Source: a virus
Length of the DNA: 20,811 nt
Virus record (IMG/VR): IMGVR_UViG_3300027985_000131
Location: 1 to 20,811 of that record
Reading direction: 5' to 3' (one strand)
Each line of letters begins with the position of its first letter. Positions within the stretch are counted from its first letter, which is position 1. The position numbers and the translations under genes were made by a program. The notes below the pieces were generated by a model. That model was given only the letters and a program-made list of their open reading frames with translations. It was not told the origin of the DNA and searched no databases. Positions 1 to 20,811 of this stretch are shown in pieces.

Positions 1-4
1 AGCT

Positions 5-721
5 ATGCAAATGTCGCAATTAAAACCGGCTTCGCAGCTTGCCCGCCGTTACGGCGTAAAGTCCGTCGTATTCGGTGCGCCGGGTTCGGGCAAAACCCCG
101 CTTATCAATACCGCACCGCGTCCGGTTTTACTTGTGACCGAACCCGGCATGTTGTCTATGCGCGGTTCCAACGTCCCGGCTTGGGAAGCATACACGCCCC
201 AACTTATCGCCGAATTCTTCGAATGGTTTATGAAATCCCGCGAAGCTTCGAATTTTGATACGTTGGGTATTGACAGTATTTCGAATATCGCCGAAATTAT
301 CTTGGCGGAAGAACTGTCGAAGGTTAAACACGGTATGAAGGCTTACGGTAATATGTCCGAACGCACAATGAAAATTGCGAACGACTTGTACTATATGCCG
401 CAAAAGCATATCGTAATGATTGCGAAACAAGGTCTAGTCGAAAACGGACGGCAAACCATTTTGCAGAACGGCGAAGTTACGTACGAACCGATTATGCAAA
501 AACGCCCGTTCTTTCCCGGCAAAGACCTTAACGTAAAGATTCCGCATTTATTCGACAACGTTATGCACTTGGGCGAAGCTTCCGTACCCGGACAGCCGAA
601 GCCGGTTCGGGCGTTGCGAACGAAAGAAATTCCCGAAGTGTTCGCGCGCGACCGCTTGGGGAACTTGGGCGAACTCGAACCGCCCGATTTGTCGGCGCTT
701 TTTGCAAAGGCAATGCAATAA
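5..721 (+). CDS. Sak4-like RecA-fold ATPase (AAA_24 type), phage recombination
   Basis: A 238-residue P-loop ATPase. The Walker A motif GAPGSGKT lies at residues 24-31, and a Walker B-like strand ends at Asp90 (TLGID). The size and the short N-terminus before the P-loop fit phage Sak4-type single-domain RecA-like proteins. These bind ssDNA and promote annealing or recombination, usually together with a phage ssDNA-binding protein. The next gene is such a protein, so the pair makes functional sense. The first ATG is only 4 bases from the window edge and a second lies two codons in (base 11), so the exact start cannot be settled; the frame is still open at the edge. The N-terminal pattern before the P-loop looks complete. 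Family placement is from motif and context. An alternative label is a generic AAA or nucleotide-binding phage protein. Confidence 0.85.
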   Translation: MQMSQLKPASQLARRYGVKSVVFGAPGSGKTPLINTAPRPVLLVTEPGMLSMRGSNVPAWEAYTPQLIAEFFEWFMKSREASNFDTLGIDSISNIAEIILAEELSKVKHGMKAYGNMSERTMKIANDLYYMPQKHIVMIAKQGLVENGRQTILQNGEVTYEPIMQKRPFFPGKDLNVKIPHLFDNVMHLGEASVPGQPKPVRALRTKEIPEVFARDRLGNLGELEPPDLSALFAKAMQ

Positions 722-729
722 ACGGTTAA

Positions 730-768
730 CTTCGCCGCCGTACACAATGGCGAAGACTTTTCGAAAAG
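730..768 (+). promoter_or_regulatory. Hairpin and 12-base palindrome before the ssDNA-binding protein gene
   Basis: The short gap between the ATPase and the next gene holds a 7-bp stem (cttcgcc at 730-736 pairing with ggcgaag at 749-755, 12-nt loop). Next to it is a perfect 12-base palindrome, cttttcgaaaag, at 757-768. The palindrome's last bases run into the ribosome binding site AAAAGGTGA of the downstream gene. It could be a weak terminator, an operator or a translation-control structure. There is no good T-tract, so a terminator call is weak. Confidence 0.35.
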
Positions 769-778
769 GTGAACTAAC

Positions 779-1537
779 ATGCAACTTATCCAACCCTTCA
801 ACGCGCAACAGTACGACCCGACCCAAGGCGTCGGAAGCCTGCCGATTGGCAAGCATCCGGTAATCATCGAATCGTCGGAAGTAAAGGCGAACAAAGCCAA
901 CGACGGCGGCTATCTGCAACTGAACTTGCGGATTATCGACGGCCCGCAGGCTGGCACGACTGGCGCGTATCGCTTGAACCTGTACCATTCCAACCAACAG
1001 ACCGTCGAAATCGCGCACCGCCAGTTGTCGGCGATTTGCCACGTTATCGGCGTGTTTCAAATCAACGATTCGTCGCAGCTTCATAACCTGCCGTTCCTTA
1101 TCGAAGTTGGCCCGCAGAAAAACGACCCGGCTTATACCGAAGTTAAAAAGGTCTTCGATATGAACGGCAACGAACCGGGCAAAGCTGGCGCAGGCGCAGC
1201 CCCGGCGCAACCGCAGCAACAGCCGCAAGGCCAACAGGGCGGCGCTTGGGGCGGTCAACCGCAGGGCCAGCCGCAGGGCCAGCCGAACGGCGCTTGGGGC
1301 GGCCAGCAACAGCAACCGGCACCGCAGGAACAGGCACCGCAAGGCGGCGCAGCATGGGGCGGCGGTCAGCCTGCCCAACAGCCCGCGCAGCAACCGGCGC
1401 AAGGTGGCGCGGCTTGGGGCCAGCAACCGCAGCAACAGCCCGCGCAGAACCAAGCCCCGGCCAACAACGGCGGCGGCTGGCAACAGGGCCAAGGCGGCGG
1501 CGCACCGGCTGGCGGGGCACCTTGGGGCGCGCGTTAA
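779..1537 (+). CDS. DUF669-family ssDNA-binding-like protein with W/G/Q-rich tail
   Basis: The product is 252 residues. The first ~125 match the DUF669 pattern (a conserved aromatic/Pro start, a strand ending in a basic patch, then LNLRIIDG and an AICHVIGV-like helix). DUF669 proteins are phage ssDNA-binding proteins that usually sit beside recombination ATPases, as here. Residues ~135-252 are low complexity: Q, P, G and A with recurring AWG/APWG units and evenly spaced Trp, presumably disordered and able to contact DNA or partners. The tail ends in APWGAR and lacks the acidic tip of bacterial SSB. That tip is found instead on the clamp-like protein at 4789-5931. The start is supported by AAAAGGTGA about 5 bases upstream of the ATG. 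Function is inferred from family and context. Confidence 0.8.
   Translation: MQLIQPFNAQQYDPTQGVGSLPIGKHPVIIESSEVKANKANDGGYLQLNLRIIDGPQAGTTGAYRLNLYHSNQQTVEIAHRQLSAICHVIGVFQINDSSQLHNLPFLIEVGPQKNDPAYTEVKKVFDMNGNEPGKAGAGAAPAQPQQQPQGQQGGAWGGQPQGQPQGQPNGAWGGQQQQPAPQEQAPQGGAAWGGGQPAQQPAQQPAQGGAAWGQQPQQQPAQNQAPANNGGGWQQGQGGGAPAGGAPWGAR
1249..1537 (+). repeat. Degenerate GC-rich repeats coding the W/G/Q tail
   Basis: This part of the ssDNA-binding protein gene is built from imperfect short repeats. An exact tandem pair of the 12-mer cagggccagccg lies at 1262-1285, and units encoding GAWGG, GAAWG and GGW recur to the stop codon. It is much richer in GC than its surroundings. Such tracts change length by slippage, so length variation between relatives is expected. 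Confidence 0.7.
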
Positions 1538-1556
1538 TACGCGACGCGGCGTAATT

Positions 1557-1587
1557 CGCCGGGGCTTTAACCGGCCCCGGCGTTTTT
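1557..1587 (+). terminator. Rho-independent terminator after the ssDNA-binding protein gene
   Basis: Perfect 9-bp GC-rich stem (cgccggggc at 1557-1565, gccccggcg at 1574-1582) with an 8-nt loop, followed directly by TTTTT at 1583-1587. It lies 20 bases after the stop of the ssDNA-binding protein and just before the DUF3268 gene. It probably separates high expression of the ATPase and ssDNA-binding protein from lower read-through into the rest of the module. Confidence 0.85.
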
Positions 1588-1605
1588 CTTTGGGGTTCCG
1601 TATTT

Positions 1606-2133
1606 ATGTCGAAAATCAAAGACGCATTGCCAGCGCCCGAACAATGCGATACCTGTTGTTCGTTTAATATTGAACTTACGACGAACGACCGGATTTACGG
1701 GCGCACTTACGGCGATTGGCCGCACATTTATTATTGCAACGACTGCCGGGCGGCTGTTGGCTGCCATCCGGGCACCTTTATTCCGCTTGGCCGAATGGCC
1801 GACCGCGCAACGCGCCAGCTAAGGACGAAGGCGCATAACGAATTCGACCGGCTTTGGCAAAGCGGTTTAATGCCGCGTTCCAAGGCTTACAATTGGCTTG
1901 CGTCGGAATTAGGAATAGACCCGTCGCAATGCCATATTTCGTGGCTGTCGAAAGACCAACTTAAAGACGTTGCGACACTTTCGGCGGATTATCTAAAAAA
2001 CAATTACGACGCCCTTATGCGGCGTAAGGCGAAGAACGATGCCAAGCAAGAAAAGCGAAACGAACGCGCAAGCGCAGTTGACAAGCGCACCGCAGACGAA
2101 GCAAGACGCCGGAAGACAAAACGTCGAACTTAG
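1606..2133 (+). CDS. DUF3268-family zinc-finger protein
   Basis: A 175-residue protein of the phage DUF3268 type (zinc-finger-containing domain of unknown function). Visible pairs are C14-x2-C17 and C44-x2-C47, with C53-H54 close behind. The pattern YYCNDCRAAVGCHPGTFIPLG and the following helix with the ADxxTRQLRxKAHxxFDxLW signature fit the family. Residues ~138-175 are strongly basic (KRNER, ARRRKTKRR), suggesting nucleic-acid contact. The gene sits between the ssDNA-binding protein and a nuclease, so a replication or recombination accessory role is likely. Its last 95 bases overlap the predicted start of the nuclease gene in another frame. The ribosome binding site is weak (GGGGTT about 11 bases upstream). 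Molecular function is unknown. Confidence 0.85.
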   Translation: MSKIKDALPAPEQCDTCCSFNIELTTNDRIYGRTYGDWPHIYYCNDCRAAVGCHPGTFIPLGRMADRATRQLRTKAHNEFDRLWQSGLMPRSKAYNWLASELGIDPSQCHISWLSKDQLKDVATLSADYLKNNYDALMRRKAKNDAKQEKRNERASAVDKRTADEARRRKTKRRT

Positions 2134-3136
2134 TTCGCCCGGCGTATCTGCCGCACTGGCAAAGCGCATCCTTGAAGATATAGACGAATATTGCGTTCGC
2201 ACTTACGACGGCGGGCACCGCTGGCACTTGGGCGCGTCGCTTATCGGTCGCGAATGCAAGCGGTATCTTTGGTACGTTTTCCGTTGGTGCCTTCACGAAA
2301 AGACGACAGGGCGTCAACAACGCTTGTTTAATCGTGGGCACCGTGAAGAAGAACGCTTTATAGAATGGCTGGAAGGTATCGGCTTTAAAATCTGGTTCGA
2401 AAACTACGAAGGCTTCGCATACCATGCCGAAAGCGATTCGTATTTGATAGCGAAGCCCGGTCAAGAAATCGACCCGCTTTGCGAATTCATTACGCCAGAA
2501 AATCCGAACTTCCGTGCCCACATTGCCCGCGCCAAGGCCGACGGTCTGGAATTCCCGCAATACAAGATTTCGGACGTTAACGGACACTTCGGCGGGTCGC
2601 TGGACGGCATTTGCAAATTTCCCGAACGCTACGGTATTGAAGAACCGGCGTTGCTTGAATTCAAGACCAACGGAACCGGGGCAGGCTTCAACAAACTAGG
2701 CGAAAGCGGAATGCCGGTAGCCAAGCCCGAACACTTCGCGCAAACTTCAACCTATGGCAAGAAATACGAATTTCGGTACGTCGTGTATTTGAATATCAAT
2801 AAAAACGACGATTCGTTACATATTGAAGTTACCAAGCTTGACCATAAGTTAGGCGAACAAATGATAAGCAAAGCGGAACAAATCATTTTGTCGCAAGAAG
2901 CGCCGCCGCGTTTGTCGGATAACCCGACGTTCCACAAGTGCGGCTATTGCGCAATGAAGGATATTTGCCACAAGGGCGCAATTCCCGAAAAGAATTGCCG
3001 AAGCTGCAAGAACGCCCGGCCAGTTGAAGGCGGCGAATGGTTTTGCGACGTTCATAACGGCGTAATTCCGCGCGAATTCGTGCCGCAGGCTTGCCCGTCT
3101 TACATTCCAATTACGGCGATTGCAAAGAATGACTAG
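2039..3136 (+). CDS. Cas4-like PD-(D/E)XK exonuclease with Cys clusters
   Basis: A 365-residue nuclease. The catalytic pattern is clear: GSLDG (Asp189), then LLEFKTN (Glu207, Lys209) and a motif Q helix (HFAQTSTY, Gln235). Cys73 (RECKRYLWY) plus Cys301, Cys304 and Cys310 have the layout of the Cas4/AddB Fe-S cluster, one Cys before and three after the nuclease core. Beyond it lie four more Cys (320, 323, 336, 352) that could bind a second metal. The likely role is processing DNA ends for recombination with the ATPase and ssDNA-binding protein, or nucleotide scavenging. The ATG at 2039 gives a 95-base overlap with the preceding gene; residues 1-33 are Ser/Gln/Thr-rich and not part of the fold, so a later start (for example TTG at 2078) is possible. 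It overlaps the helicase by 8 bases. Confidence 0.85.
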   Translation: MPSKKSETNAQAQLTSAPQTKQDAGRQNVELSSPGVSAALAKRILEDIDEYCVRTYDGGHRWHLGASLIGRECKRYLWYVFRWCLHEKTTGRQQRLFNRGHREEERFIEWLEGIGFKIWFENYEGFAYHAESDSYLIAKPGQEIDPLCEFITPENPNFRAHIARAKADGLEFPQYKISDVNGHFGGSLDGICKFPERYGIEEPALLEFKTNGTGAGFNKLGESGMPVAKPEHFAQTSTYGKKYEFRYVVYLNINKNDDSLHIEVTKLDHKLGEQMISKAEQIILSQEAPPRLSDNPTFHKCGYCAMKDICHKGAIPEKNCRSCKNARPVEGGEWFCDVHNGVIPREFVPQACPSYIPITAIAKND

Positions 3137-4784
3137 CCTTTACGTTCCGCGTTGGTATCAAGACGAAGCGGAATATTCGATATTCGATTACTTCGAACGC
3201 GGCGGGGCCGGAAACCCCGTCGTCGCCATGCCAACAGGTACGGGAAAGTCGGTAGTAATCGCGAATTTTATTCGCCGAATTTTCGGTTACTGGCCGAATC
3301 AGCGAATAATGATGCTTACGCATGTTAAAGAACTTATCGAACAGAACGCCGAAAAGCTTTTGTCGGTATGGCCTGTCGCGCCAATGGGTATTTATTCCGC
3401 AGGCTTGAACAGTCGCGAAATGATTATGCCAATCGTATTCGGCGGCGTTCAGTCCGTAGCCCCGGCAATTAAGCGCAGTCTTGAAGAAGACAACGACAAG
3501 CCGCCGCACCTTCGCCACTTTGGATGGCGCGACCTTCTTTTAATTGACGAATGCCATTTGTTAAGCGATAAAGAAGATTCGCATTACCAATATATTATCG
3601 CCGAATTAAAGAAGATTAATCCGCACCTAAAAGTAATCGGATTTACGGCGACGCCCTATCGAATGAAAATGGGGCTTATTACCGACAACGGTATTTTTAC
3701 CGACATTTGTTACGATATTACGGGCGTCGAATCGTTTAACCGTCTTATCGCCGAAGGTTATTTGTCGCCGCTAATTGCCAAGCCTACCCGAACCGAAATC
3801 GACGTTTCGGGCGTTGGACTTGTGGGCGGCGAATTCAATTCCAAACAGTTAGAACGGGCGGTAGATACCGACGAAGTTGTTTTTAATGCTGTTCGCGAAA
3901 TGACCGAAACAGCGTACGACCGTTCGACTTGGCTTGTCTTCGCAACTGGTATTGACAATACCGAACACGTCGCGCACGTTATCCAGTCTTACGGGCTGGA
4001 AGTTCTGCCGGTACATTCGAAATTGCCAGCGAAGACAAATACCGAACGCTTGCGCGCTTTCAAAGCTGGCGAACTTCGCGGTTTGGTATCCGGGCAGAAA
4101 CTTACAACAGGTTTCGACCATCCGCCGATAGACTATATCGCCGACCTTAACCCGACGCTTTCGCCGGGCAAACACGTTCAAAAGTTGGGACGCGGTACGC
4201 GACCTTCGCCGGAAACCGGCAAGCTTAATTGCTTGTACGGCGACTTCGCCGGGAATGTTCGTAGGCTTGGGCCAATCAACGACCCGCGTATTCCGAATCG
4301 CCCCGGCAAAGGTGGCGGCGACGCCCCGGTTCGTATCTGCGAAGTTTGCGGCGTATATAATCATGCTTCGGCCCGCGTTTGTATCAACTGCGGAACAGAA
4401 TTCAGCTTTGAAACAAAGATATTCGGAACAGCCGGGACGCTTGAACCGCTGCGAAGCGACGCGCCTTTGGTCGAATATTTCAACGTACAAAAAGTTATTT
4501 ACAACTTGCACGAAAAGCGCGACGCTAACGGCAATTTGACTAAACCGCCAATGATTAAAGTTAGCTACTTTTGCGGCTTTCAAATGTTTAACGAATTCGT
4601 AACGCTAGAACATCCGGGCTTCGCAGCGAAGCGCGCCCGCGAATGGTGGCGGCAGCGGCACCACGAAGAACCGCCGCCGACAACTTACGAAGCCTTGCGG
4701 CGTGTTTCCGAACTTCGCACGCCTACCCGTATTCGCGTATGGGTAAACAAGAAATATCCCGAAGTTCTTTCCGCTGAATGGTGA
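3129..4784 (+). CDS. Superfamily 2 DEAD/DEAH-like helicase with C-terminal zinc ribbon
   Basis: A 551-residue helicase from the ATG at 3129, which overlaps the nuclease stop by 8 bases. A TTG nine bases earlier is also in frame but less likely. Motifs in order: PxWYQ near the N-terminus, Walker A PTGTGKS (35-41), DECH (140-143), TATP (173-176), TTGFD (326-330) and QKLGRGTR (351-358). A zinc ribbon follows: C404-x2-C407 and C418-x2-C421. Layout and length fit phage SF2 helicases of the type II restriction/UvsW-like class. The likely role is unwinding or remodelling DNA at replication or recombination intermediates. The last ~130 residues contain WWRQRHHEEPPPTT and look like a phage-specific accessory domain of unknown role. 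The next gene follows after 4 bases, so translation is probably coupled. Confidence 0.9.
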   Translation: MTSLYVPRWYQDEAEYSIFDYFERGGAGNPVVAMPTGTGKSVVIANFIRRIFGYWPNQRIMMLTHVKELIEQNAEKLLSVWPVAPMGIYSAGLNSREMIMPIVFGGVQSVAPAIKRSLEEDNDKPPHLRHFGWRDLLLIDECHLLSDKEDSHYQYIIAELKKINPHLKVIGFTATPYRMKMGLITDNGIFTDICYDITGVESFNRLIAEGYLSPLIAKPTRTEIDVSGVGLVGGEFNSKQLERAVDTDEVVFNAVREMTETAYDRSTWLVFATGIDNTEHVAHVIQSYGLEVLPVHSKLPAKTNTERLRAFKAGELRGLVSGQKLTTGFDHPPIDYIADLNPTLSPGKHVQKLGRGTRPSPETGKLNCLYGDFAGNVRRLGPINDPRIPNRPGKGGGDAPVRICEVCGVYNHASARVCINCGTEFSFETKIFGTAGTLEPLRSDAPLVEYFNVQKVIYNLHEKRDANGNLTKPPMIKVSYFCGFQMFNEFVTLEHPGFAAKRAREWWRQRHHEEPPPTTYEALRRVSELRTPTRIRVWVNKKYPEVLSAEW

Positions 4785-4788
4785 ACTT

Positions 4789-5931
4789 ATGACAACCTTA
4801 GACAATAACGTTCCGCTTCCGCCCGAAGAACCGGCGAAGGAACCAGCCAAAAAGAAAAGCCCGGCCCGCAAGCGCGCGACGAAGAATAAAAGCGCAGCGC
4901 CGAACCCTGCGGCGTCGCTTATCGCGGCATTGAAGTTCGTTGCAGCCGCGCAGAAAAAGGCCGGGCCGACGAATGTTCAATTTGCCCACATTACGCACCA
5001 TTGGGCCGCAGCCTTCGACGGCGTGTTGACTGTCGCGCACCCTATCGAAGAAGACTTGGCAGCGTGCCCGCATACGTTGCAGTTTATCGACGCATTGTCG
5101 AAGGCTTCCGACGAATTGGCAATTACGCAACTTACGCCGAATTCGCTTGCCGTAGCGTCTGGCGTGTTCCGCGCGTTGGTGCCCTGCGTCGGCTTCGACG
5201 AAGTGCCCATAGCCCCGCCCGACCCGCAATGCGCAGTAATCGACGACCGGGTTAAAACGGCCTTGGCTGCGGTTTCAGGGCTGGCGACAGATAACGCCCC
5301 GGTCGCGACCTATGCCGCCGTCTTGCTGCAAGCTGGAAGCGCCGTAGCGACCAACGGGGCGGCCTTGCTGGAAGCGTGGCACGGTATCGACCTTCCGCCC
5401 GGCCTTATGCTGCCCAAGGCTGCCGCCGTGGCGATTTCGAAGGCACCTTACCCGCTAACCGGCTTCGGCTTTTCGGCGTCGTCTGCGACGTTCTATTTCG
5501 AAAACGGGGCGTTTATCAAAACGCAACTTTACGCCGAACGGTTCCCGAATTATTCCGGCTTAATGGAAGTCGAAGGCTTGAACCCTTGGGCGGTTCCCGA
5601 AGACTTCTTTAAAGGCGTTCGCGCGATTGAATCGTTTAGCCCGAACGGAAACGTATTCTTCGAAGACGGGGCGGTTCTGTCGAAGATGCACAAAGAAGAA
5701 GCTTCGACGTACAAAATCGAAGGTTTGCCCGACCGTATGGGCTTCGGCGTTAAAATGCTGTTGGCCGTCGAACATGCGTTTAAAAAGGCGCACTTTCTGC
5801 CGGAAGCAAACAAGGTCGTATTTTTCGGCGAAGACGTACGCGGGGCGCTAATGGGTCTTGACCTTGGCACCGAAGTTCCGTATAATCCGGCGAACTCCGA
5901 AGACGATTATTCGGACGACATACCGTTTTAA
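4789..5931 (+). CDS. Beta-sliding-clamp-like protein with SSB-type acidic C-terminal tip
   Basis: A 380-residue protein whose strand/helix pattern resembles a three-domain DnaN clamp: domain I about 60-145 (ending LAVASGVFRALVPC), domain II about 150-255 (AVATNGAALLEAWHGI, then LPPGLMLPK), domain III about 265-360 (ending KVVFFGEDVRGALMGL). Total length matches bacterial beta clamps. It stands between helicase and polymerase, and the polymerase ends in ALSFF, close to the clamp-binding peptide. Residues 17-34 are a Lys/Arg/Pro linker absent from ordinary clamps. The last residues, SEDDYSDDIPF, copy the SSB C-terminal tip (E. coli SSB ends DFDDDIPF), which recruits repair and replication proteins. 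The clamp assignment is from pattern and context without an alignment; the tip is seen directly. The start has GGTGA just upstream. Confidence 0.65.
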   Translation: MTTLDNNVPLPPEEPAKEPAKKKSPARKRATKNKSAAPNPAASLIAALKFVAAAQKKAGPTNVQFAHITHHWAAAFDGVLTVAHPIEEDLAACPHTLQFIDALSKASDELAITQLTPNSLAVASGVFRALVPCVGFDEVPIAPPDPQCAVIDDRVKTALAAVSGLATDNAPVATYAAVLLQAGSAVATNGAALLEAWHGIDLPPGLMLPKAAAVAISKAPYPLTGFGFSASSATFYFENGAFIKTQLYAERFPNYSGLMEVEGLNPWAVPEDFFKGVRAIESFSPNGNVFFEDGAVLSKMHKEEASTYKIEGLPDRMGFGVKMLLAVEHAFKKAHFLPEANKVVFFGEDVRGALMGLDLGTEVPYNPANSEDDYSDDIPF

Positions 5932-5941
5932 GGGGCATCGT

Positions 5942-6244
5942 ATGCTAAACGAAGAAGGCTTTATAGTTGCGAAGAAAAGCCGCGTCGTTGATAAACTGGC
6001 CGCAAGCATTCGGCAGGCTTTGCGGCCTGTCGAATTTATGACAGACGACGAATTAATGTTGCTGCCAGCGGGAAGCGTCTTCGTTTTCGACGTTGAAACT
6101 TACGTAAATTTCTTTTACGTCGCGTTTAAGTCGCTGGATAACGGAAAGTTCGTCGCGTTCGAACGTTCGCCCGACTTGGATTTTAACGAAACTAAGTTGC
6201 GTTGGATGCTTTGGCGCTTTTGCGAAATTATGACTTGCCGATGA
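5942..6244 (+). CDS. N-terminal piece of family B DNA polymerase (3'-5' exonuclease start)
   Basis: A 100-residue ORF with a strong ribosome binding site (AAGGGG, 7 bases before the ATG). Residues 46-54, SVFVFDVETY, carry the Exo I motif (Asp50, Glu52) of a DnaQ-like proofreading domain. The following strand and the helix KLRWMLWRF are what normally leads to Exo II in phage family B polymerases. The frame then runs into CEIMTCR and stops, while the matching continuation (NYDLPMIELAARG) is in the -1 frame. It is therefore the front end of the polymerase gene next door, split by a frameshift or small deletion near 6218-6230. It cannot be a complete exonuclease because Exo II and Exo III are missing. 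Its stop overlaps the downstream ATG as ATGA. Confidence 0.75.
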   Translation: MLNEEGFIVAKKSRVVDKLAASIRQALRPVEFMTDDELMLLPAGSVFVFDVETYVNFFYVAFKSLDNGKFVAFERSPDLDFNETKLRWMLWRFCEIMTCR

Positions 6245-7974
6245 TTGAACTAGCGGCACGCGGCGCAGATTGCAAGAAGCTTAAAGAAGCGTCCGATTTC
6301 ATCATTAAAAGCGGGCCGAACTATGGAACCGAAAAGGTAACGCCGTTCGCGTTCGAAAAGAAATACGGCGTACAAATTGGCCGATACAATCATATCGACC
6401 TTATCGAAGTTGCGCCGCTTCAAGGTTCGTTGAAGCTGTACGCGGGGCGCTTGCATTGCGAACGTATGCAAGACTTGCCATTTCCCGAAGACCATGTATT
6501 AACGCAGGAAGACGCCGAAATAGTGCGGCCTTATTGCTGCAACGACCTTTCGAATACCGAACTTTTGTTTAACGAACTTGCGCCCGAATTGAAATTGCGG
6601 GCCGAAATGTCGGAAGAATACGGCGTAGACCTTCGGTCGAAATCAGACGCACAAGTAGCCGAAGCGGTTATTAACTCCGAACTTCAAAAAGTCCTTGGCT
6701 ATTATCCGAAGAAGCCCACACTATCCGCCGATACCGTCTTGGTTTACGACGTGCCCGACTTCGTTTGCTATCAAACGACGCAGCTTCGCGAAATGCTGGA
6801 AGTCGTGCGAAACGCCCGATTCTATCTTGACGGCTTGGGGTCGCCAATCATGCCGCCCGAACTGGAAAAGCTGAAAGTAACCATCGGCGGTTCGACGTAT
6901 AAACTAGGTATGGGCGGTTTGCATTCTACCGAAAAGAAAACGGCGCACTATGCGACCGACGAAATAATTTTGGCAGACAACGACGTAGAATCGTTTTACC
7001 CGCGAACAATCCTTAATCAAAGACTTTGCCCGCCGCACTTGGGCGAAGCTTTCTTGACCGTTTACGAAAAAATTGTAAATACACGAATTCACGCCAAAGC
7101 CGAAGCGGCAAAGGCAAAGAAGGCGGGCGACCGCGCAGCCGCGAAGAAATGGAAGACAATTGCCGACAGTTTGAAGATTACCATTAACGGAAGCTTCGGA
7201 AAGCTTGGCAACAAATATTCGACGCTGTATGCGCCGCAACTTATGTTGCAAGTAACCATAACCGGGCAACTTGTCTTGCTAATGCTTATCGAAGCATTGG
7301 AAGGAATCGGCATCGAAGTTATATCCGGCAATACCGACGGTATTATTTCCAAGTATCACAAATCGCGGCACGAAGACGTAAGAAACATGATTGCAGCTTG
7401 GGAAGCGCACACCGGGTACAAGACCGAAGAAACGCGCTATAAGGCCGTCTATAGCCGGGACGTTAATTCTTACGTCGCCATTAAAGAAGACGGCGGCGAC
7501 GACGAAGCGCGCTTTTTGGACGAACGACTAGGGGCGAAGACCAAGGGCGCTTATTGCGAACGCGGATCGGCCCTTAATTCGATTCTGTCGAAGAATCCCG
7601 AAACCCTAATTTGTGCCGACGCCGTGTTGCAGTACCTAGTAAACGGCGTATCGGTCGAAACGACTATTCGTCAATGTCGGGACTTCCGCCGCTTTGTTGC
7701 AGTTAAGAACGTTCGGGGCGGCGGCGAAAAGAACGGTCGTTATTTGGGCAAGGTTGTTCGCTGGTATTACCCGAAAAACGAAGCCGGGCATATCGCGTAC
7801 GTAACCAGCGGAAACAAAGTAGGTAAAACGGACGGCGCGCGGCCTGTAATGGATTTACCGACAGACTTTCCCGACGATATTAATTACGATTGGTACATTA
7901 AAGAAGCAACGGATATGCTTTACGATTGCGGGCGGTTGAAGAAGGCAACAACCGCCGCGCTTTCGTTCTTTTAA
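6241..7974 (+). CDS. Family B DNA polymerase, main part
   Basis: 577 residues from ATG 6241; the frame is open back to 6187 and has a TTG at 6202. Motif A is DVESFYP (Asp248), motif B is K312-ITINGSFG, motif C is SGNTDG (Asp366). NTDG replaces the usual DTDS, but the catalytic second Asp is kept. Exo III is YCCND (Tyr98, Asp102). Together with the preceding 100-residue ORF, which holds Exo I, this makes one ~690-residue protein-primed-insert-free phage polymerase. The start lacks a ribosome binding site but overlaps the previous stop as ATGA, so restart after termination could give a polymerase with a damaged proofreading domain. The C-terminus, AALSFF, resembles the beta-clamp-binding peptide (family B E. 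coli Pol II ends QLGLF). It converges on the tail module with a 4-base overlap. Confidence 0.88.
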   Translation: MIELAARGADCKKLKEASDFIIKSGPNYGTEKVTPFAFEKKYGVQIGRYNHIDLIEVAPLQGSLKLYAGRLHCERMQDLPFPEDHVLTQEDAEIVRPYCCNDLSNTELLFNELAPELKLRAEMSEEYGVDLRSKSDAQVAEAVINSELQKVLGYYPKKPTLSADTVLVYDVPDFVCYQTTQLREMLEVVRNARFYLDGLGSPIMPPELEKLKVTIGGSTYKLGMGGLHSTEKKTAHYATDEIILADNDVESFYPRTILNQRLCPPHLGEAFLTVYEKIVNTRIHAKAEAAKAKKAGDRAAAKKWKTIADSLKITINGSFGKLGNKYSTLYAPQLMLQVTITGQLVLLMLIEALEGIGIEVISGNTDGIISKYHKSRHEDVRNMIAAWEAHTGYKTEETRYKAVYSRDVNSYVAIKEDGGDDEARFLDERLGAKTKGAYCERGSALNSILSKNPETLICADAVLQYLVNGVSVETTIRQCRDFRRFVAVKNVRGGGEKNGRYLGKVVRWYYPKNEAGHIAYVTSGNKVGKTDGARPVMDLPTDFPDDINYDWYIKEATDMLYDCGRLKKATTAALSFF

Positions 7975-8429: not shown

Positions 8430-8432
8430 GGT

Positions 8433-12926: not shown

Positions 12927-12937
12927 AAGTTCGCCCC

Positions 12938-13753
12938 TTATACGATAGAACTTCCGCCAAACGGATTTTTAAGCGGAATAAACGGGTATCCGCCATAGTT
13001 TAGCAGATTTGAAAACTTGTCGTTACAAGTTTCTTTAGAACGGTCGCAGCCCGGATAAATGTTAACTACGACGCTTCCGTAAAAATTGCCGTAGTTATAG
13101 CCGTATCCACTATTTGCGAAAGCTTCGCTTAATGAATAAACCGGCCTTATTAAAGTAAGTGTCGAACCAACGTGGTTCGTAATAAACCTTAACGTTCCGT
13201 CCGGCGCTTCTATCATACCGGCAGTAAAATAACCGTCGGGAAATGTAGCGGCTTCGCCTACGCTAACAATAAGACCATTTGCCGACATTCCGCCAACAAC
13301 GCCCGACGTTTTCCAATCGTCTTTATTCAAACGACAACCGCGACCGTAAAGAACATGCGGGCAAGAACGTTGATAACGCTTACGAAGTCCTGCCCGGCGA
13401 AGCGAAGTAAAGATAGATTCAAAAACAAGCGTAATTGAAGTTACGTCCGGTTTTACAGAAGAAAGCCGCCCCTTCCAAACTACCATAACCGACGAAGTTT
13501 CAACGTCTTTTGAAAAAATACTAAGGGTAACAACGCTGTCGATAACTTCGCGCATCCAGCGTCGGGCTATGGGGCTGTCCAAATCGAAAGAAACTTCTAA
13601 GTTTGCCCGCGAAAGTTCGTTTTTCGATTCCGCTTCGTTTCGGCCAATGGTAGTCGAAACATAAGTTTCGCCGTTGTAATCTTCGTCGGCGTCTGAACTT
13701 GTAACAGTCCATACGTTAGAACCTTCGACGAACTTGTAAAGTTCTTTTCTCAT
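12938..13753 (-). CDS. BR0599-family (lambda gpL-like) tail tip protein
   Basis: A 271-residue protein of the phage BR0599 family. The signature CPHVLYGRGC (Cys131, Cys140) and the C-terminal CDRSKETC (Cys236, Cys243), followed by KFSNLLNYGGYPFIP, are diagnostic. The four Cys match, in spacing within each pair (9 and 7), the four that bind a 4Fe-4S cluster in lambda gpL as I recall it. The gap between pairs is longer here, so cluster binding is an inference. It lies between the gpM-position gene and the J-like gene, as L does in lambda, so it is a tail-tip structural protein. Residues 216-226 form a Tyr/Gly run similar to the end of the J-like protein. The start overlaps the upstream stop as ATGA; the rare GAG at 13749 lies in this overlap. 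Confidence 0.85.
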   Translation of the reverse strand: MRKELYKFVEGSNVWTVTSSDADEDYNGETYVSTTIGRNEAESKNELSRANLEVSFDLDSPIARRWMREVIDSVVTLSIFSKDVETSSVMVVWKGRLSSVKPDVTSITLVFESIFTSLRRAGLRKRYQRSCPHVLYGRGCRLNKDDWKTSGVVGGMSANGLIVSVGEAATFPDGYFTAGMIEAPDGTLRFITNHVGSTLTLIRPVYSLSEAFANSGYGYNYGNFYGSVVVNIYPGCDRSKETCNDKFSNLLNYGGYPFIPLKNPFGGSSIV

Positions 13754-14913
13754 TGGCTTATTTCCAAAATTCTAACTTCGCTTTCGGCTACATTGTTTCC
13801 GCGCCAAGTTATTTCGATACGGTCGGTATCCAAACGATTTAAGCCCAAATAGCAGATTCTTACAATCTTGTCGGCGCTTACGTTCAAAGCCGCCGACAAT
13901 GTTAATTGCATACTTTCCGGGCCTGTTTGGATTGGATTAGAAATGCCCCTAGTGTACCAAGTGCCGTCGGCTGTTTGAATAGCGATATTGTTACGAACCG
14001 AAGCGTAATCTATAAACGAATCCAACTTTACATAAAGGGCGCTTACGACAGTTCCGGTATTCAGCAAGCGCAAATTATTTTCAAACGTCGGCATATAAAA
14101 TTCGCGAAACTTACCAGCGCGACGGTATAAAAATTCCTTAAATACTCGCATTTCCGCCGCGCCTTCGATAATAGAACGATAGGGCGTGCCAAACTGCGAA
14201 TAATCCCAAGGCGAACGGCGGGCGATTGGCCCCAACGAATAGTCGATTACGTCCAAGCGTTGTTCTATAGTTCGCGAAATTCTGTCGCCGCTTAACAAAC
14301 CCGGTTCGTAATAAATGTCTTTCGATAAATATTGCGAAGGTGCCGACGGAACAAGCGCCAAGTTATCTTCGATTTGAAAAGTAACCGTCGATTTGCCGTT
14401 GTGTCCGTTTGTGGGCTTATCAACGTTTCCGGTAATCCAACCAAGGCGAACGGGAACAAGCCAAGCCCCGGACATTGCCGAAAGTACGTTAGTCGGCGTT
14501 ATTGAATCCGAAGCAATCGCGCCAATTTCTACAATTTGCCAGTTTTCGCAGCCTGCAAAAAGCAACGCAAGCGAATTTGCGCGAAGGTCGAAAATAGTTG
14601 TATCGCACGCAATAGAACCGGCAGAATCGACGACCGTTCCTACGTACTGCCCTTCCGTCCAAATTGGAACAGCCCAACGCTTGCGAATGGCCCCGGCTTC
14701 GGTATTAAACGCGGCGGCCATGTTCCAAGCCTGAACGGGTATTGTATACGCGAACGACTGGCGCGGCTTGGAACGCAATTGCAAACGCTGTTCTTCGCCG
14801 CTGTAAGCTTCCATAACATCGGTTAAAAATTCCAATGTTTCTTTAACCGGCGTTTCGGCAGGGTGCGGAAGAATTGCAAGTTCGCCGAAAAGCGTTGTCG
14901 TTATCTTAGCCAT
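13750..14913 (-). CDS. Distal tail protein, lambda gpM position
   Basis: A 387-residue, mostly beta protein directly downstream of the tape measure gene, where lambda M and other distal tail proteins lie. It has no membrane segment or catalytic motif. The visible block RRAGKFREFYMPTF (about 266-279) and the C-terminal strands (GISNPIQTGPESMQLTLS) are the kind of pattern seen in tail proteins annotated beside BR0599 genes. It presumably caps the tape measure and joins the tail tube to the tip. The start overlaps the tape measure stop by 8 bases (ATGGCTAA), and the end overlaps the next start by 4 bases. No closer family name is claimed. Confidence 0.72.
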   Translation of the reverse strand: MAKITTTLFGELAILPHPAETPVKETLEFLTDVMEAYSGEEQRLQLRSKPRQSFAYTIPVQAWNMAAAFNTEAGAIRKRWAVPIWTEGQYVGTVVDSAGSIACDTTIFDLRANSLALLFAGCENWQIVEIGAIASDSITPTNVLSAMSGAWLVPVRLGWITGNVDKPTNGHNGKSTVTFQIEDNLALVPSAPSQYLSKDIYYEPGLLSGDRISRTIEQRLDVIDYSLGPIARRSPWDYSQFGTPYRSIIEGAAEMRVFKEFLYRRAGKFREFYMPTFENNLRLLNTGTVVSALYVKLDSFIDYASVRNNIAIQTADGTWYTRGISNPIQTGPESMQLTLSAALNVSADKIVRICYLGLNRLDTDRIEITWRGNNVAESEVRILEISQ

Positions 14914-17900
14914 TCTGCAACGCCTGTTTAACTACGTCGGAATTTCGACGAATTGTATTTACAAAAACTTGTTCGCCTTCCGGCGTAGACAAGTAATCGC
15001 CGACCATTGCCGGGTCAAGAACGGTAATCATGCGAACGTTGGTTGTGTTGCCCACATTACCGCCGTTTTCGCCAGATACAGGCGCGGAACCTTGCGGGGC
15101 GGCCTGCGTCCCGTTGTTGCTGTTCTGCGATACTTGGGCAGCGCCAGACCGTAGGGCTTCAAGGTTCGCAACGCCTACGCGCGCCGTCGTTGCGGCGTCC
15201 ATTACGAATTCTTGACCGTGAACAACGCCCGCAACTTCGTTAACGCCTATCGAACCAGTGTAGCCGCCTTCGCGGAACCCGGTTTGTTGCGACCGGATTT
15301 GCGCAACGTTCGCCATGCCTGCCGCAATTGCAGCCGCAGCCGCAGCCGCGCCCAATACAGGGCCGACGTAAGGAATCGACGCCATAGCGGCATAAGCGCC
15401 GGTCGCGCTTTGGTACGTGTTAATTACGGCGTTCGTAATTGCGGCGGCTTTGCCAATTGCGGCAAGCTTTCTGTTATTCGACGATTGCAAACCTTCAAGC
15501 GAACTAAAGAACGTTTTTGCGGTCGATAGCTGCGCGTTTTGCTGCGCGTTCCAAATTTGCATTTTGGCCGCTGCGGCGGTTTGTTCGCTAATTAAATCTT
15601 GCTGCCGCAATGCGTCGATTTGTTCGTAAGCTTGGCCCAATTGGTCTACTTGCGCTTGTATCATTTCGGGCGAACCGGCCAGATATTGCCCGGCTTCGGT
15701 GCCGCCTATAGCGGTTAGCGCGTCCGAACGGGTAAAGCCCGAATCGGGGTTTTTAAGTAGGTTGTTAATCGCCGTAAGTTGGTCGATATACGCTTGGCGC
15801 TTACCTACGCTGTTGTCTAACAACGTTGCTTCTTGCTGCGATACTGCGTTTACTTGCTGTAACAACGTTAAGCGTTCGCGAAGCTGCGTCAATTCTTGTT
15901 CGTTAAGCACAATGCCTTTCGAAAGCAAGTCGTTTTGAACTTGCATAATTTGTTGTTCTACTTCGCGTTGTTTCGGAAGCATGGTCAACAATTCGAATTG
16001 TTGTTGTAAATCTTTGTTATATTGGCGCAACGGGTCTTGCGCATTTGCAAAAGCTTCGTTCGCCATAGTTACAGCGCGGGCGTAATGTTCTTGCGAAATC
16101 GCGCCCATATCTAACAACTTTTGCGCAGCTTCAAGGCTTGCGTTATAGGTACGCTGCGGCCCTACTGCGTCTTCGTAAATGCGGTCGAATTCCTGTTGAA
16201 CGATTGCCGCTTGCTGGATAGTCGCGATTTTTTCTTTAAGTGCGTCGGCTTCTTGCTTTGTGAGTGTAATTTTTTTACCCAACAACTGTTCTTCGATTTG
16301 GTCGAATTTCTGTTGGGCTTCGCGCGCAGGTTGAAGCATTCCAATTCGCGCCAATTCGTTGTCAAGCTGCGCGTTTACTTTCGCAAGTGCTGCGGCGCGG
16401 CTTTCGGCAGTTTTAGCGGTCTTGTCTGCGTTGGCTTCTTCTAGTGACTTTTGCACGCGCGAACGTGCGGCTTGTTCCGTGTTTTTCATCCAATCGGCAA
16501 TAAATTTCGAAGTAGCCGCTTTGTTGTTTTCCAAGTTGGTAACGTAGCTATCTACGAAAATATCCGAAAGTTCTTTACCGGAAGCGTCGGCAAATTCAGT
16601 CGGCAAACGGTCGAACGTAACTTTTTCGAACGGGTCGATTTGAACCGTCGAAATCTTGTTAAGTCCGGCAATGATTAAGTTTACTGCGTCAATCGCAGCA
16701 TTTGCCATGCCTTCGAAGTAGCCAATAACGACGTTCGTTACTTCGGCCATAATCTTTTTAACAGGCGAAGGAATCCGGGCGAATACTTCCGAAATTACGT
16801 CGCCGGTTGCTTGGATAAGCGCGACAATAGATTGCACCGAAAGCGCGATATAGCCAAGAATATTTTTAAACGTCTTCTTCGTAGATTCCCAAAGACCGCC
16901 GAACAAATCGCCCGCGCCTGTTCTTTCGTCAATGGTTGCCCACAATCCCTTCATTGTGTCGGTGAACGTTACCGTATCAAGGTCTAATTGTTTGATTTGC
17001 TTTTGAGTCGCGCCCAACGATTCGGCATACTTCTTCAAGTCTGCGCTTTTGTTTACTTCCGACTGAAACAACTTAAACGCGCCGACGGCTACGCCAAGCG
17101 CGGCCACAAGCGGAAGAAATGGGAGCAACAGCGCGCCGACAGCTTTTGCCATTGCGCCAAGACCTACGCCAGCTTGCGCGGCAATACCGCCAATTTGTGC
17201 GCCCTGTTGGATAAATACGGTAAGCGGGTTTTGCCCGGACGCCAGCGAAACGCCAATGTCTTGTATTTGGAAACCCAAGTTAACCAAATGATGCCGGGCA
17301 AGCTGCGAACCTTTGGCAGTTTTTACAAGTCCGTTATTAAGTGCGTTTTGGCCGATTCGCGCGGCTTCCATTTGTTCGGTACTGCGATTAACCGCGTCGG
17401 TATACGTTTTAACGTCAATCGCCCCGGCCTTGTAAAGCTTCAATGCCTGTTGAACGGCGGCATTGTGGGCTTGCTGCGCGTCGTACAGCGGGTAAAGCGA
17501 CCGTTTCAGGGCTTCGGCTTCGCGGGCCATCTTGTCGCCAGCCTGCGCGGCCTTTTCCTGCGCCTGTTGCAGCCGTAGGGCCGCAATGGCTGCCCGGTCT
17601 TCCGCTGCCGCCGCTTGGGCCGTTGCCGTGGCCGTACGGGCCTGTTCTGTCGCTAGGCGCTGCGCAGCCGTGGCCGTTTGCTGTTGGGCCGTGGCGGTGC
17701 GCGCCGTGGCCGTGGCTAGGGCTTCTTGGGCGGTAGTCGCGCGGGTCTGCGCTGCGGCGGCTTGCGCTGCGGCTGTCGCGGTGCGTTGCTGTTCGGTTGC
17801 CAGACGTTGCGAAGCAAGCGCCGTGTTGTTGATAGCGCGAGTCGCTGCGGTTGCATTTTGAAGAATTACGTTAAGATTACCGGCGTTAAGTTGCGCTAAT

Positions 17901-18022
17901 TGATTTTGCAGGTTCTTGACTGCGCCGTCGGCTGTTCGCGCTTCGGTCGCAATGGTTCGAAGCTTGGTCGAAATAGACGGCGAAACCTTGTCTTCTACCT
18001 TAATTTCGATATTTTCGGCCAT
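14906..18022 (-). CDS. Tape measure protein
   Basis: 1038 residues, the second longest gene here and downstream of the frameshifted chaperone, as tape measures are. Residues ~30-170 are an Ala/Thr/Gln-rich helix with an internal duplication. Hydrophobic segments lie at about 289-318 (GALLLPFLPLVAALGVAVGA) and 390-410, and again near 425-455. Long Gln-rich coiled-coil stretches fill the middle. The C-terminus has the tape-measure pattern GFREGGYTGSIG, then GQEFVMDAATT. It sets tail length and is ejected into the cell at infection. At about 0.15 nm per residue it predicts a tail of roughly 150 nm, so a long flexible tail. AAGGAA precedes the ATG. It probably binds the chaperones encoded just upstream. 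Confidence 0.92.
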   Translation of the reverse strand: MAENIEIKVEDKVSPSISTKLRTIATEARTADGAVKNLQNQLAQLNAGNLNVILQNATAATRAINNTALASQRLATEQQRTATAAAQAAAAQTRATTAQEALATATARTATAQQQTATAAQRLATEQARTATATAQAAAAEDRAAIAALRLQQAQEKAAQAGDKMAREAEALKRSLYPLYDAQQAHNAAVQQALKLYKAGAIDVKTYTDAVNRSTEQMEAARIGQNALNNGLVKTAKGSQLARHHLVNLGFQIQDIGVSLASGQNPLTVFIQQGAQIGGIAAQAGVGLGAMAKAVGALLLPFLPLVAALGVAVGAFKLFQSEVNKSADLKKYAESLGATQKQIKQLDLDTVTFTDTMKGLWATIDERTGAGDLFGGLWESTKKTFKNILGYIALSVQSIVALIQATGDVISEVFARIPSPVKKIMAEVTNVVIGYFEGMANAAIDAVNLIIAGLNKISTVQIDPFEKVTFDRLPTEFADASGKELSDIFVDSYVTNLENNKAATSKFIADWMKNTEQAARSRVQKSLEEANADKTAKTAESRAAALAKVNAQLDNELARIGMLQPAREAQQKFDQIEEQLLGKKITLTKQEADALKEKIATIQQAAIVQQEFDRIYEDAVGPQRTYNASLEAAQKLLDMGAISQEHYARAVTMANEAFANAQDPLRQYNKDLQQQFELLTMLPKQREVEQQIMQVQNDLLSKGIVLNEQELTQLRERLTLLQQVNAVSQQEATLLDNSVGKRQAYIDQLTAINNLLKNPDSGFTRSDALTAIGGTEAGQYLAGSPEMIQAQVDQLGQAYEQIDALRQQDLISEQTAAAAKMQIWNAQQNAQLSTAKTFFSSLEGLQSSNNRKLAAIGKAAAITNAVINTYQSATGAYAAMASIPYVGPVLGAAAAAAAIAAGMANVAQIRSQQTGFREGGYTGSIGVNEVAGVVHGQEFVMDAATTARVGVANLEALRSGAAQVSQNSNNGTQAAPQGSAPVSGENGGNVGNTTNVRMITVLDPAMVGDYLSTPEGEQVFVNTIRRNSDVVKQALQNG
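17594..17809 (-). repeat. Internal direct duplication in the tape measure gene
   Basis: Residues 72-94 and 121-143 of the tape measure share the pattern QRLATEQ-x-RTATA-x-AQAAAA, offset by 49 residues (147 bases). The copies lie at about 17741-17809 and 17594-17662. The DNA copies have diverged more than the protein. This suggests an old unit duplication in the N-terminal helix that lengthened the ruler. Confidence 0.6.
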
Positions 18023-18028
18023 TGCTTT

Positions 18029-18463: not shown

Positions 18464-18801
18464 TATTTCGCCGCCGCCTTTCGCTTCGCTTCCAGTCGTT
18501 TTAAATGTTCCGAATCTAAACGACGAACGAAAAAATACAAATCTTCGGTTTGTTCTTCGTCAAATTCGAAAGCTCTTGCGTATGTTGCAATACTTGTCCA
18601 AGGTATCGCGGTTAATCCGTTGCCGTGCGAACGTTCGGAATCCAAATCGAAGAACGCTTGCAAAAACAGTTGTAAGCCCGGTTCAAGTTCTGGCGCGTTG
18701 GCTATGCGGTCGGGCAATGGTTGCCCGGCCCGCATAGCCTGTTTTGCTATCGCCTGTTCGTGCGGGCCTAATTCGAACAGGTAAACCAGAACTTCGGTTA
18801 G
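18463..18801 (-). CDS. Tail assembly chaperone frameshift extension (gpT-like part of gpGT)
   Basis: This frame is open from the slip site of the upstream chaperone gene to 18463 and encodes 112 residues when entered by -1 frameshift. The joined product has 253 residues. The join reads LTEVLVYLFELGPHEQAIAK, then the stretch starting MRAGQPLPD, whose Met (18735) also looks like a start but has no ribosome binding site. The C-terminal part is acidic then basic (FEFDEEQTEDLYFFVRR; LKRLEAKRKAAAK). As in lambda gpGT, the extension would bind the tape measure or tube protein during assembly, while the short form is made in excess. Length, position before the tape measure and the slippery site together make this secure. 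Confidence 0.85.
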   Translation of the reverse strand, partial: LTEVLVYLFELGPHEQAIAKQAMRAGQPLPDRIANAPELEPGLQLFLQAFFDLDSERSHGNGLTAIPWTSIATYARAFEFDEEQTEDLYFFVRRLDSEHLKRLEAKRKAAAK

Positions 18802-19223: not shown

Positions 19224-19231
19224 TGTTTTAA

Positions 19232-19235
19232 CTCC
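19232..19235 (-). promoter_or_regulatory. GGAG ribosome binding site of the tail chaperone gene
   Basis: Minus-strand GGAG, 8 bases before the chaperone ATG, identical in core and spacing to the site before the DUF2793 gene. It is one of only 12 GAG/CTC trinucleotides in the window, so it seems to be kept for translation. Confidence 0.7.
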
Positions 19236-19240
19236 GATTA

Positions 19241-19273
19241 AATGAAGAAAGGGCCGGGAAGTTCCGGCCCTTC
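19241..19273 (-). terminator. Rho-independent terminator between tube protein and chaperone genes
   Basis: A perfect 9-bp stem (plus-strand aagggccgg at 19249-19257 and ccggccctt at 19264-19272) with a 6-nt loop. Read on the minus strand it is followed by TTTCTTCATTT, a moderate U-rich tract. It lies 14 bases after the tube protein stop and before the chaperone gene. It probably allows partial read-through, giving much tube protein and less chaperone. Confidence 0.75.
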
Positions 19274-19286
19274 AATCATAGCCCAA

Positions 19287-20811
19287 TTAGTCGGGCATTG
19301 CTACAGTTGGAAGATATGCGAACACTTCGTAAAGCATCGTATAGCCGTTTTCGTTTTCCGCGCCCGCCGGTTCAAGCGGAACAGTAATTGGCGCGTCTTT
19401 TTCGACGTTAAGACGACCGCCGCCCAAGCCAAGCAACGGAATATCGAAGATAAAACCGGCGTTTTTCGAAGCGCCGATAATTGACATACCAACGTCGGCA
19501 TTCGCGCGAACAGCCTTAACGGCTGCAACAGTCGTAAAGTAAGCGGTAATCGAACCGCCGACTTCGAAGTTACCCGCCGTTGTGTCGAATGCGCCAAGAA
19601 TGCCGACGGCTTTATTTGGCGAAACGTTGTTGTTAATCGAAATATTCGCTTCGGACACGTAGCCGAACAGGGCCGCAGGGTTCGAAGCTGCCGGGTCGTG
19701 AACCGCCATCTTGATTCGGTAAATGTCCGACGAAGTATTGTAGGCATCTTCGCCCGGCGCACTTACGCGGGTTCCCGTCTTAATTTCGTCGTCAACTTCG
19801 CCGCTGCGATAAGTGTTATCGCAAGCGATAAACGCAAGGTCGGCGTTAAGCTTGTCGGCCTGCGGAACGTTCAACGTAAATTCGTTCGCTACCGCACCTT
19901 CCAAATATTCCGCTTGCGTCGAAGTATCGCCTTCGCCCAACTGCCGTTCGATATTGTACGAACGACGTTTGATAAGCGCCGGGGTCTTTTCGTTCTTGAT
20001 AACGGTTCCGACGAAAATTCGAATCGTCTTACCGGCCCCGCTTTCGTTCGCCCCGGCGTAGGTCGTATCGTCGAATACGATTGCGTTTGCCGAAACCGAC
20101 TTAATGCGCGCATAGCCCACATTATTAGCGAAGCGATTTGCGGCAAGGTCGCCGCCCAAGAACAGCCATTGACCGGCGAACAGACCGGGAAGGGTCGTAA
20201 AGTCGGTTACGGTCGAAACGATAGAACCAATACCGTCTACGACGGCGTAGTTAATATCATCGGCGGCCAGTTCGAACCCGACAGTCTGGAACTTGGCACC
20301 GGCTGGCGGCGAAGCTTCGTCGGTCAAAGCTTCCACGACTACGACGGTTCCAGCGGTCGAAGACGCAACAGTTTTAAGGCCGTTGTTCGACGCATTGGTA
20401 AAGCCCGACGCGAAGATAAGTTGACCGGCTGCGAACGACGCGCCGCCGCTGGCGACTGCGTAAGTCTTGGTCGCCGAATCGACGGACGAAATCGCGACTT
20501 GCGCCGCGTTAAGTCCGGCAGTTGACGGCAGTTCGCGGGCGTCTGCGAAAAAGAAACCTTGCAGAATACGAACAAGGTTCGACTTCGTAAAGTCCGTGTT
20601 AAAGCCGCCGCTTGCGTCAAGGTCGGTAATTGCGCCTTTCTTGTTCTGGCGCGACGGGTCGATAGGTGCGCGGGCTACGGTCGAAAGGTCGCCGCCGAAG
20701 TCCGAATAGCTGTTGGGTTCCAGACCGTACCAAACGGCCCCGTCGCCGCTGCCGGGCGCGCCGCCGCCGTCGGGAAGTTGCTTCAAGCATTCTTCTTCGG
20801 CGAATGCCAGC
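19287..20811 (-). CDS. Major tail tube protein (5' end cut by window edge)
   Basis: At least 508 residues, open to the window edge. An in-frame TTG at 20786 is not a likely start because the frame continues upstream (LAFAEEEC) without a stop. The N-terminal block APIDPSRQNKKGAITDLDA, then GFNTDFTKSNLVRILQGFFFAD, is the pattern of phage tail tube proteins of the Phage_tube_2 kind. The middle and end are beta-rich and Ala/Gly/Val-rich (LGAFDTTAGNFEVGGSITAYF; PITVPLEPAGAENENGYTMLYEVFAYLP). It polymerises into the tail tube around the tape measure. It is larger than the minimal tube fold (~200-250 residues), so residues ~85-270 may carry an extra beta-domain exposed on the tail. A terminator follows the gene. 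Confidence 0.85.
   Translation of the reverse strand, partial: LAFAEEECLKQLPDGGGAPGSGDGAVWYGLEPNSYSDFGGDLSTVARAPIDPSRQNKKGAITDLDASGGFNTDFTKSNLVRILQGFFFADARELPSTAGLNAAQVAISSVDSATKTYAVASGGASFAAGQLIFASGFTNASNNGLKTVASSTAGTVVVVEALTDEASPPAGAKFQTVGFELAADDINYAVVDGIGSIVSTVTDFTTLPGLFAGQWLFLGGDLAANRFANNVGYARIKSVSANAIVFDDTTYAGANESGAGKTIRIFVGTVIKNEKTPALIKRRSYNIERQLGEGDTSTQAEYLEGAVANEFTLNVPQADKLNADLAFIACDNTYRSGEVDDEIKTGTRVSAPGEDAYNTSSDIYRIKMAVHDPAASNPAALFGYVSEANISINNNVSPNKAVGILGAFDTTAGNFEVGGSITAYFTTVAAVKAVRANADVGMSIIGASKNAGFIFDIPLLGLGGGRLNVEKDAPITVPLEPAGAENENGYTMLYEVFAYLPTVAMPD

Follow-up and report, generated by a model that had tools for sequence, protein, structure and literature searches.

Why should a phage genome be almost empty of a single trinucleotide, on both strands and in every reading frame? 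The question is raised by the fragment of viral DNA IMG/VR record IMGVR_UViG_3300027985_000131, positions 1 to 20,811 (the whole of this 20,811-bp stretch is called the window below), in which a program count finds GAG and its complement CTC at only 13 sites (4 GAG and 9 CTC). A preliminary description, made by reading the sequence, had listed 12 sites; all 12 are present, and a thirteenth, at 17839, had been overlooked. Its estimate of about 650 sites for random sequence of this length agrees with the expectation from base composition (~330 each for GAG and CTC), and the program count fell far short of the several hundred that it had named as a refutation. The expectation from dinucleotides is 184 GAG and 179 CTC (~362 together), which gives observed/expected ratios of 0.02 and 0.05, far below those of every other triplet, the next lowest being GTG (0.43) and CAC (0.50). 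As described before, the depletion covers both halves of the window, and hence both of its gene modules, and is not a matter of simple A/T pressure. Nor is it seen in other DNA taken as background: the ratio is 0.41-1.10 (median 0.80) in 62 unselected IMG/VR viral contigs, 0.79 in the E. coli K-12 chromosome and 0.64-0.93 in 55 alpha-proteobacterial chromosome stretches, so that an equally depleted host, which would have refuted the observation, was not found among these bacteria.

The window (GC 51%) is a piece of a Septimatrevirus-like phage, genus demarcation not being applicable to a fragment. It shares 82-84% DNA identity and an identical gene order with the Septimatrevirus phages 73, SCUT-S3, Kakheti25 and DLP1, and with SCUT-S3 the identity is 82.7% across 64% of the window. 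The depletion also holds in whole relatives. Phage 73 has 28 sites against 826 expected (0.034) and the Rhodobacter phage RcHartney 6 against 840 (0.007), and the ratios are 0.036 in KL1 (Burkholderia), 0.040 in DoCa1 (Xanthomonas) and 0.030 in Lucius (Sphingomonas). Weaker depletion is found in Halfdan (E. coli; 0.091), Pfeifenkraut (0.111), FtMidnight (0.24) and KP1 (0.28). Among loci gathered via the polymerase or primase, the ratio runs from 0.002 to about 1, and the most depleted genome (G017) has about 1 site in 33 kb. The depletion is therefore graded: members of a single phage supergroup differ in its strength, and the 43-kb Septimatrevirus-like genomes show it most. It is a lineage trait, a loss of 90-99% of the word, that is kept on alpha-, beta- and gamma-proteobacterial hosts. 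Because it is genome-wide and extends across hosts, its cause should probably be sought in the phage lineage and not in any one host. Recombination was rejected as the origin of the partial depletion in KP1 and FtMidnight, where the sites are evenly spread. A switch by gene presence or absence was also rejected, since no phage 73 gene is in all strongly depleted genomes yet absent from all non-depleted ones; the best candidate, a 127-aa protein (PHROG 9241), mostly follows phylogeny. We found no literature report of triplet avoidance in Septimatrevirus-like phages. That a 43-kb genome can shed 96-99% of a triplet and still keep its proteins conserved is an extreme sequence-wide constraint. Whatever its cause, the scarcity of GAG/CTC is a simple marker of the lineage in metagenomes and calls for caution in codon-usage work on these phages.

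The avoidance acts on DNA. The coding sequences of phage 73 contain 14 GAG/CTC, whereas a null model that preserves the protein and samples synonymous codons according to the GC3 (GC content at third codon positions) of the genome predicts ~1256. Each of the six classes of triplet and codon phase is reduced by at least 97%, in line with the blindness to frame and strand first noted in the window, and survivors outside Shine-Dalgarno sites number 94 on the coding strand and 127 on the template strand. Since both strands and all phases are hit alike, a codon or mRNA-level cause was rejected and the constraint must lie on the DNA itself. In stretches at least 99.5% identical among ten close Septimatrevirus genomes, 3 of the 306 single-nucleotide polymorphisms (SNPs) create or destroy a GAG/CTC against 35.7 expected, a 12-fold deficit, although one SNP may count in several genome pairs and the numbers are not independent. 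The control triplets CAG, GAC, TAG, CGA, ACG and GTG gave 0.93-1.12, but AAG, GGG and GGA were also low (0.43-0.47). Were GAG merely hypermutable, new copies would go on arising at the usual rate; the rarity of GAG-changing SNPs thus points to selection rather than mutational bias. In KP1, branch-specific gains of GAG are ~0.3 of those of CAG (75 vs 258); this gain rate roughly equals the standing level, which argues for a weaker steady state rather than decay. GAG/CTC is, then, removed by purifying selection on the double-stranded DNA sequence. Judged from the depletion levels, the cost per site seems small, with population-scaled selection of the order of 1 to 6, in contrast to the true restriction sites that these genomes have lost completely, and this small cost would explain why Shine-Dalgarno sites and a few codons retain GAG.

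The surviving sites show where the word is tolerated. GGAG before a start codon accounts for 13-17 of the 28-41 survivors per genome in phages 73, SCUT-S3, BAPIC_0004, KL1, DoCa1 and PSV3, and for about half of those of phage 73; survivors in Pseudomonas, Burkholderia and Xanthomonas phages are largely of this kind. GAG is thus tolerated at ribosome-binding sites, where translation needs it. Residual coding sites common to several genomes are few, fall for the most part in the genes for the major capsid protein and the polymerase, and are mostly Ser-Glu codon pairs; as these codons explain them best, conserved functional GAG sites were rejected. The base that follows a residual GAG is preferentially a pyrimidine, mainly T. 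The sites of the window are listed in Table 1.

What, then, makes GAG costly? The most likely reader is, tentatively, the lineage's own primase-helicase, in which case these phages may avoid their own priming word. The enzyme is a PrimPol of the NrS-1 type with a template-reading helical-bundle domain (HBD); GAG and, more weakly, GTG plus a purine (together the word GWGR) would be strong start sites on whichever strand is single-stranded. Surplus start sites would burden replication, for example through too many short fragments in phages without their own ligase. Both the reading of GAG by the primase and a cost that arises from priming are suggestions of low confidence. A still bolder form, in which a lytic lineage purges its primase word genome-wide on both strands, and start-site depletion sets origin choice and Okazaki-fragment density independently of host defence, is unlikely, if conceivable.

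Several lines of evidence point to the primase. The primase-helicase gene of the lineage (L001, 33398-35719) lies outside the window. The phage 73 primase matches PF22763 (NrS-1 helical-bundle domain; 1.5e-8) and, by profile, the solved NrS-1 PrimPol (E ~1e-42). An AlphaFold2 (AF2) model of its first 330 residues has a pLDDT (predicted local distance difference test) of 89, and its top fold matches in the PDB are NrS-1 PrimPol and then pRN1 primase; a single-sequence AF2 model of the full-length protein (pLDDT 34) is uninformative. The lineage primase is accordingly an NrS-1-type PrimPol with an HBD, of the same family, by profile and predicted fold, as NrS-1 polymerase and pRN1 ORF904. NrS-1 PrimPol initiates at GTGA and GTGG and the pRN1 enzyme at GTG (PMC8718748), and the word avoided in the lineage, which we infer to be GWGR with A stronger than T, resembles the NrS-1 priming word. 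In the majority of depleted genomes GTG comes next after GAG in depletion, and along the primase tree its level changes with that of GAG (contrast r 0.64, p 3e-11, n 86). Furthermore, depleted genomes avoid GTG chiefly before a purine (uncorrected rho 0.68 in 143 genomes, the highest of 14 triplets tested), an avoidance that follows GAG in the tree-based contrasts as well (r 0.37, p 4e-4), whereas the controls CTG (0.19) and GGG (0.18) are not significant. In Salmonella phage 9NA, which has a distant primase of the same family, GAG is the lowest triplet (0.51), and an ATP-dependent ligase gene is found in 3 of 61 genomes, all three non-depleted. The correspondence between PrimPol and GWGR is the sole case that came to light in which a conserved enzyme of the phages can be connected with a word of such shape. 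If the primase does read GAG, the depletion would be evidence that priming-site density itself is under selection.

A number of observations weigh against the primase. GTG is not avoided by NrS-1 (0.91) and is over-represented in pRN1 (1.35), so that priming-word avoidance was rejected as a general rule, and the lineage differs from both in that it avoids mainly GAG rather than GTG; selection may act differently there, pRN1 being a plasmid and NrS-1 a phage with integrase and CI-like genes. Three loci (L215, L229 and L228) are non-depleted (0.77-0.85) despite a near-identical HBD sequence. A residue switch in the HBD (K256 to Q, QNR), which appeared to account for partial depletion, seemed to fit the first 40 genomes perfectly but failed in 80 further loci, where L197 and L199 are strongly depleted with Q and L176 is at 0.32 with K. 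The primase is also present in Seurat and in Stenotrophomonas phage ply2008005c, neither of which is depleted, RcRhea reaches 0.37 without a detectable PrimPol, and L219 and G036 deplete GAG but hardly GTG. With its single site or so, G017 has too little GAG to prime a lagging strand from it. GC content is a further correlate of depletion (contrast r -0.62), and our literature search found no phage that avoids its own priming site.

Another DNA transaction may instead make GAG costly, whether recombination by the SF2 helicase, Cas4 and Sak4 proteins, packaging, or a DNA-binding regulator; we hold this to be possible but doubtful. The entire replication-recombination module is conserved in depleted genomes, and the depletion is bound to the lineage. 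However, non-depleted relatives possess the module just as well, and we know of no triplet-specific activity in the SF2 helicase, Cas4 or Sak4-type families.

Host defence is a close rival of the priming reading, though also rather doubtful. It would take a widespread proteobacterial restriction-like system that reads GAG (or GWGR) in unmodified DNA, with this lineage dropping the word and its relatives modifying their DNA; such a system would have an unusually short target. Depleted phages do avoid restriction sites: palindromic hexamers are at about 0.3-0.6 of expectation, and the window and L001-L012 strongly avoid these hexamers, CCWGG (in most genomes 0-1 sites vs ~40) and GATC; the last, often avoided, is absent from phage 73 yet present 92 times in DoCa1, while in KP1 (L005) restriction-site avoidance is largely lost. 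Levels of GAG and avoidance of hexamers go together (rho 0.65), but the two separate in both directions (L042, G014 and G016; G010, G036 and L013). RcAqua, unrelated to RcHartney and growing on the same R. capsulatus strain, YW1, strongly avoids palindromes and shares with RcHartney the absence of GTAC, but has GAG at 0.62, and LUZ19 on PAO1 has GAG at 0.78. In the temperate R. capsulatus phage RcRhea (L262, RcRhea 1-16000), GAG is the lowest triplet at 0.37, GTA is at 0.47 and GTAC occurs 0 of ~6 times. Since RcRhea reaches this level on YW1 without the primase, a host contribution is conceivable; on the three-base-core defence envisaged in the preliminary description, RcAqua and RcRhea point in different directions. 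We are aware of no restriction system with a 3-bp target. A cutting enzyme would not spare a genome with the ~28 sites that phage 73 retains, and true 4-bp sites do vanish completely, as GTAC does in Rhodobacter phages (0 of ~480).

DNA modification bears on the same question. A 7-deazaguanine cluster is found in none of 87 genomes or loci with GAG below 0.6 and in 18 of 97 above it, many of the loci being partial genomes; that relatives with the cluster are never depleted favours defence, but the association is largely due to a few clades and is only suggestive. Seurat-like phages and ply2008005c share the primase and other replication-module genes with the depleted lineage but, unlike it, carry QueC/QueD/QueE/FolE/DpdA-type genes and show no depletion (GAG 0.76-0.84). 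In one Stenotrophomonas phage with PrimPol (L261, 34752-38561), a DpdA/FolE/QueD/QueC/QueE cluster adjoins the clamp gene. Two phages of the depleted clade, G046 (L183) and G048 (L188), have C5 cytosine methylase genes and exceed their closest methylase-free relatives in GAG (0.119 vs 0.044 and 0.177 vs 0.111), in favour of defence; methyltransferases were set aside as a general relief because they are too rare, and three methyltransferase families had no match in the strongly depleted genomes searched. For KL1, DLP1/DLP2 and Loki, ordinary digestion by EcoRI and other enzymes is described (PMC3483164, PMC4559383, PMC5313236), an argument against global modification of DNA among these phages. 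A modification chemistry of the phage's own, one of the causes first listed as possible for the window, is hence not supported by the cluster, the methyltransferase searches or the digests.

Like the avoidance of restriction sites in prokaryotic viruses (PMC6286503), the loss of GAG is the genome-wide removal of a short word by selection; in contrast, the word here is 3 bp long, asymmetric, avoided across hosts and separable from restriction sites, and it settles at a low steady level with functional exceptions instead of zero. The depletion of protospacer adjacent motifs (PAMs) in phages of CRISPR hosts (PMC4246573) likewise concerns a short non-palindromic word, but here the loss is lineage-wide over many host genera and reaches 99% or more. 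A single shared CRISPR PAM, likewise among the causes first listed for the window, is unlikely, because the depletion spans alpha-, beta- and gamma-proteobacterial hosts.

It is improbable that a phage nuclease (VRR-NUC/Vsr-like, PHROG 824) attacks GAG-rich host DNA while the phage is spared by its few sites. Almost every depleted genome has the gene, its product resembles VRR-NUC, and such a role would account for host independence. However, many non-depleted relatives have the gene too, VRR-NUC enzymes are, to our knowledge, specific for structures and not for triplets, and the linked depletion of GTGR would be left unexplained. Residual sites that lie close together are unbiased in strand, contrary to a nick-density model, and a nickase requiring opposed sites was rejected for the same reason. 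Least probable by far is a neighbour-dependent mutation bias, by hypermutable GAG or biased repair, that depletes the word in the absence of selection: AAG and GAA belong to the triplets in greatest excess in the window, as loss by transition would give, but this cause, also raised in the first reading, is contradicted by the 12-fold deficit of GAG-changing SNPs against most control triplets near 1 and by the partial depletion of KP1, which resembles a steady state rather than decay.

Table 1. Features and residual GAG/CTC sites of the window (positions on the plus strand)
Feature	Position	Strand	Basis or remark
GAG/CTC depletion region	1..20811	.	13 sites vs ~362 expected from dinucleotides; whole relatives alike
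Sak4-like ssDNA annealing protein (replication module)	5..721	+	phrog_124 4e-51
ssDNA-binding protein (DUF669)	779..1537	+	PF05037; phage 73 ortholog
Cas4-domain exonuclease	2039..3136	+	orthology to phage 73 28823-29920
SF2 (ResIII/DEAD) helicase	3120..4784	+	PF04851 1e-20
Replicative clamp	4789..5931	+	orthology
Family-B DNA polymerase	5858..7974	+	two overlapping open reading frames (ORFs), 5858-6244 and 6202-7974
J-like tail protein, two LamG-type lectin domains	8433..12512	-	PF13550, PF13385, PF00354
Tape measure protein	14906..18022	-	PF06791
Residual GAG (CTC on +), Sak4-like gene	674..676	-	
Residual GAG (CTC on +), clamp gene end	5895..5897	-	
Residual GAG (CTC on +), DNA polymerase	6675..6677	-	Asn-Ser-Glu context AACTCCGAA; also in phages 73, SCUT-S3, BAPIC_0004, KL1
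Residual GAG as Shine-Dalgarno GGAG	8438..8440	-	just upstream of ATG of ORF 7971-8429(-), start 8429
Residual GAG (CTC on +)	8757..8759	-	
Residual GAG over start codon (ATGAG)	13749..13751	-	ORF 12938-13753(-)
Residual GAG (CTC on +)	14145..14147	-	
Residual GAG, tape-measure gene	16262..16264	+	
Residual GAG, tape-measure gene	17005..17007	+	
Residual GAG, tape-measure gene	17123..17125	+	
Residual GAG, tape-measure gene	17839..17841	+	absent from earlier list
Residual GAG (CTC on +)	18573..18575	-	
Residual GAG as Shine-Dalgarno GGAG	19232..19234	-	just upstream of ATG of ORF 18798-19223(-)

Other short words are avoided in single lineages. The Rhodobacter-type phages L008, G012, G017 and L190, besides having no GTAC, have GGAC at 0.05 and GTAG/CTAC at 0.09, and GTAC loss is seen in Sphingomonas phages as well as Rhodobacter phages. 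In L219, CATC/GATG occurs 2 times against 92 expected and GATC 0 times against 83, a further case of a short asymmetric word avoided in one lineage.

The window carries a replication-recombination module (Sak4-like protein, single-stranded DNA-binding protein, Cas4 exonuclease, SF2 helicase, clamp and family-B polymerase) and a tail module that includes a J-like protein bearing LamG domains. A frameshift near 6200-6244 splits the polymerase gene and is either an assembly error or a real lesion. The polymerase, helicase and tape measure genes of the RefSeq record PSV3 NODE_1 (L012) are also in pieces, probably through assembly errors. The J-like protein has 1359 aa in the window against 813 aa in its phage 73 counterpart, with both LamG-type domains C-terminal, and the gain in size is likely a receptor-binding addition.

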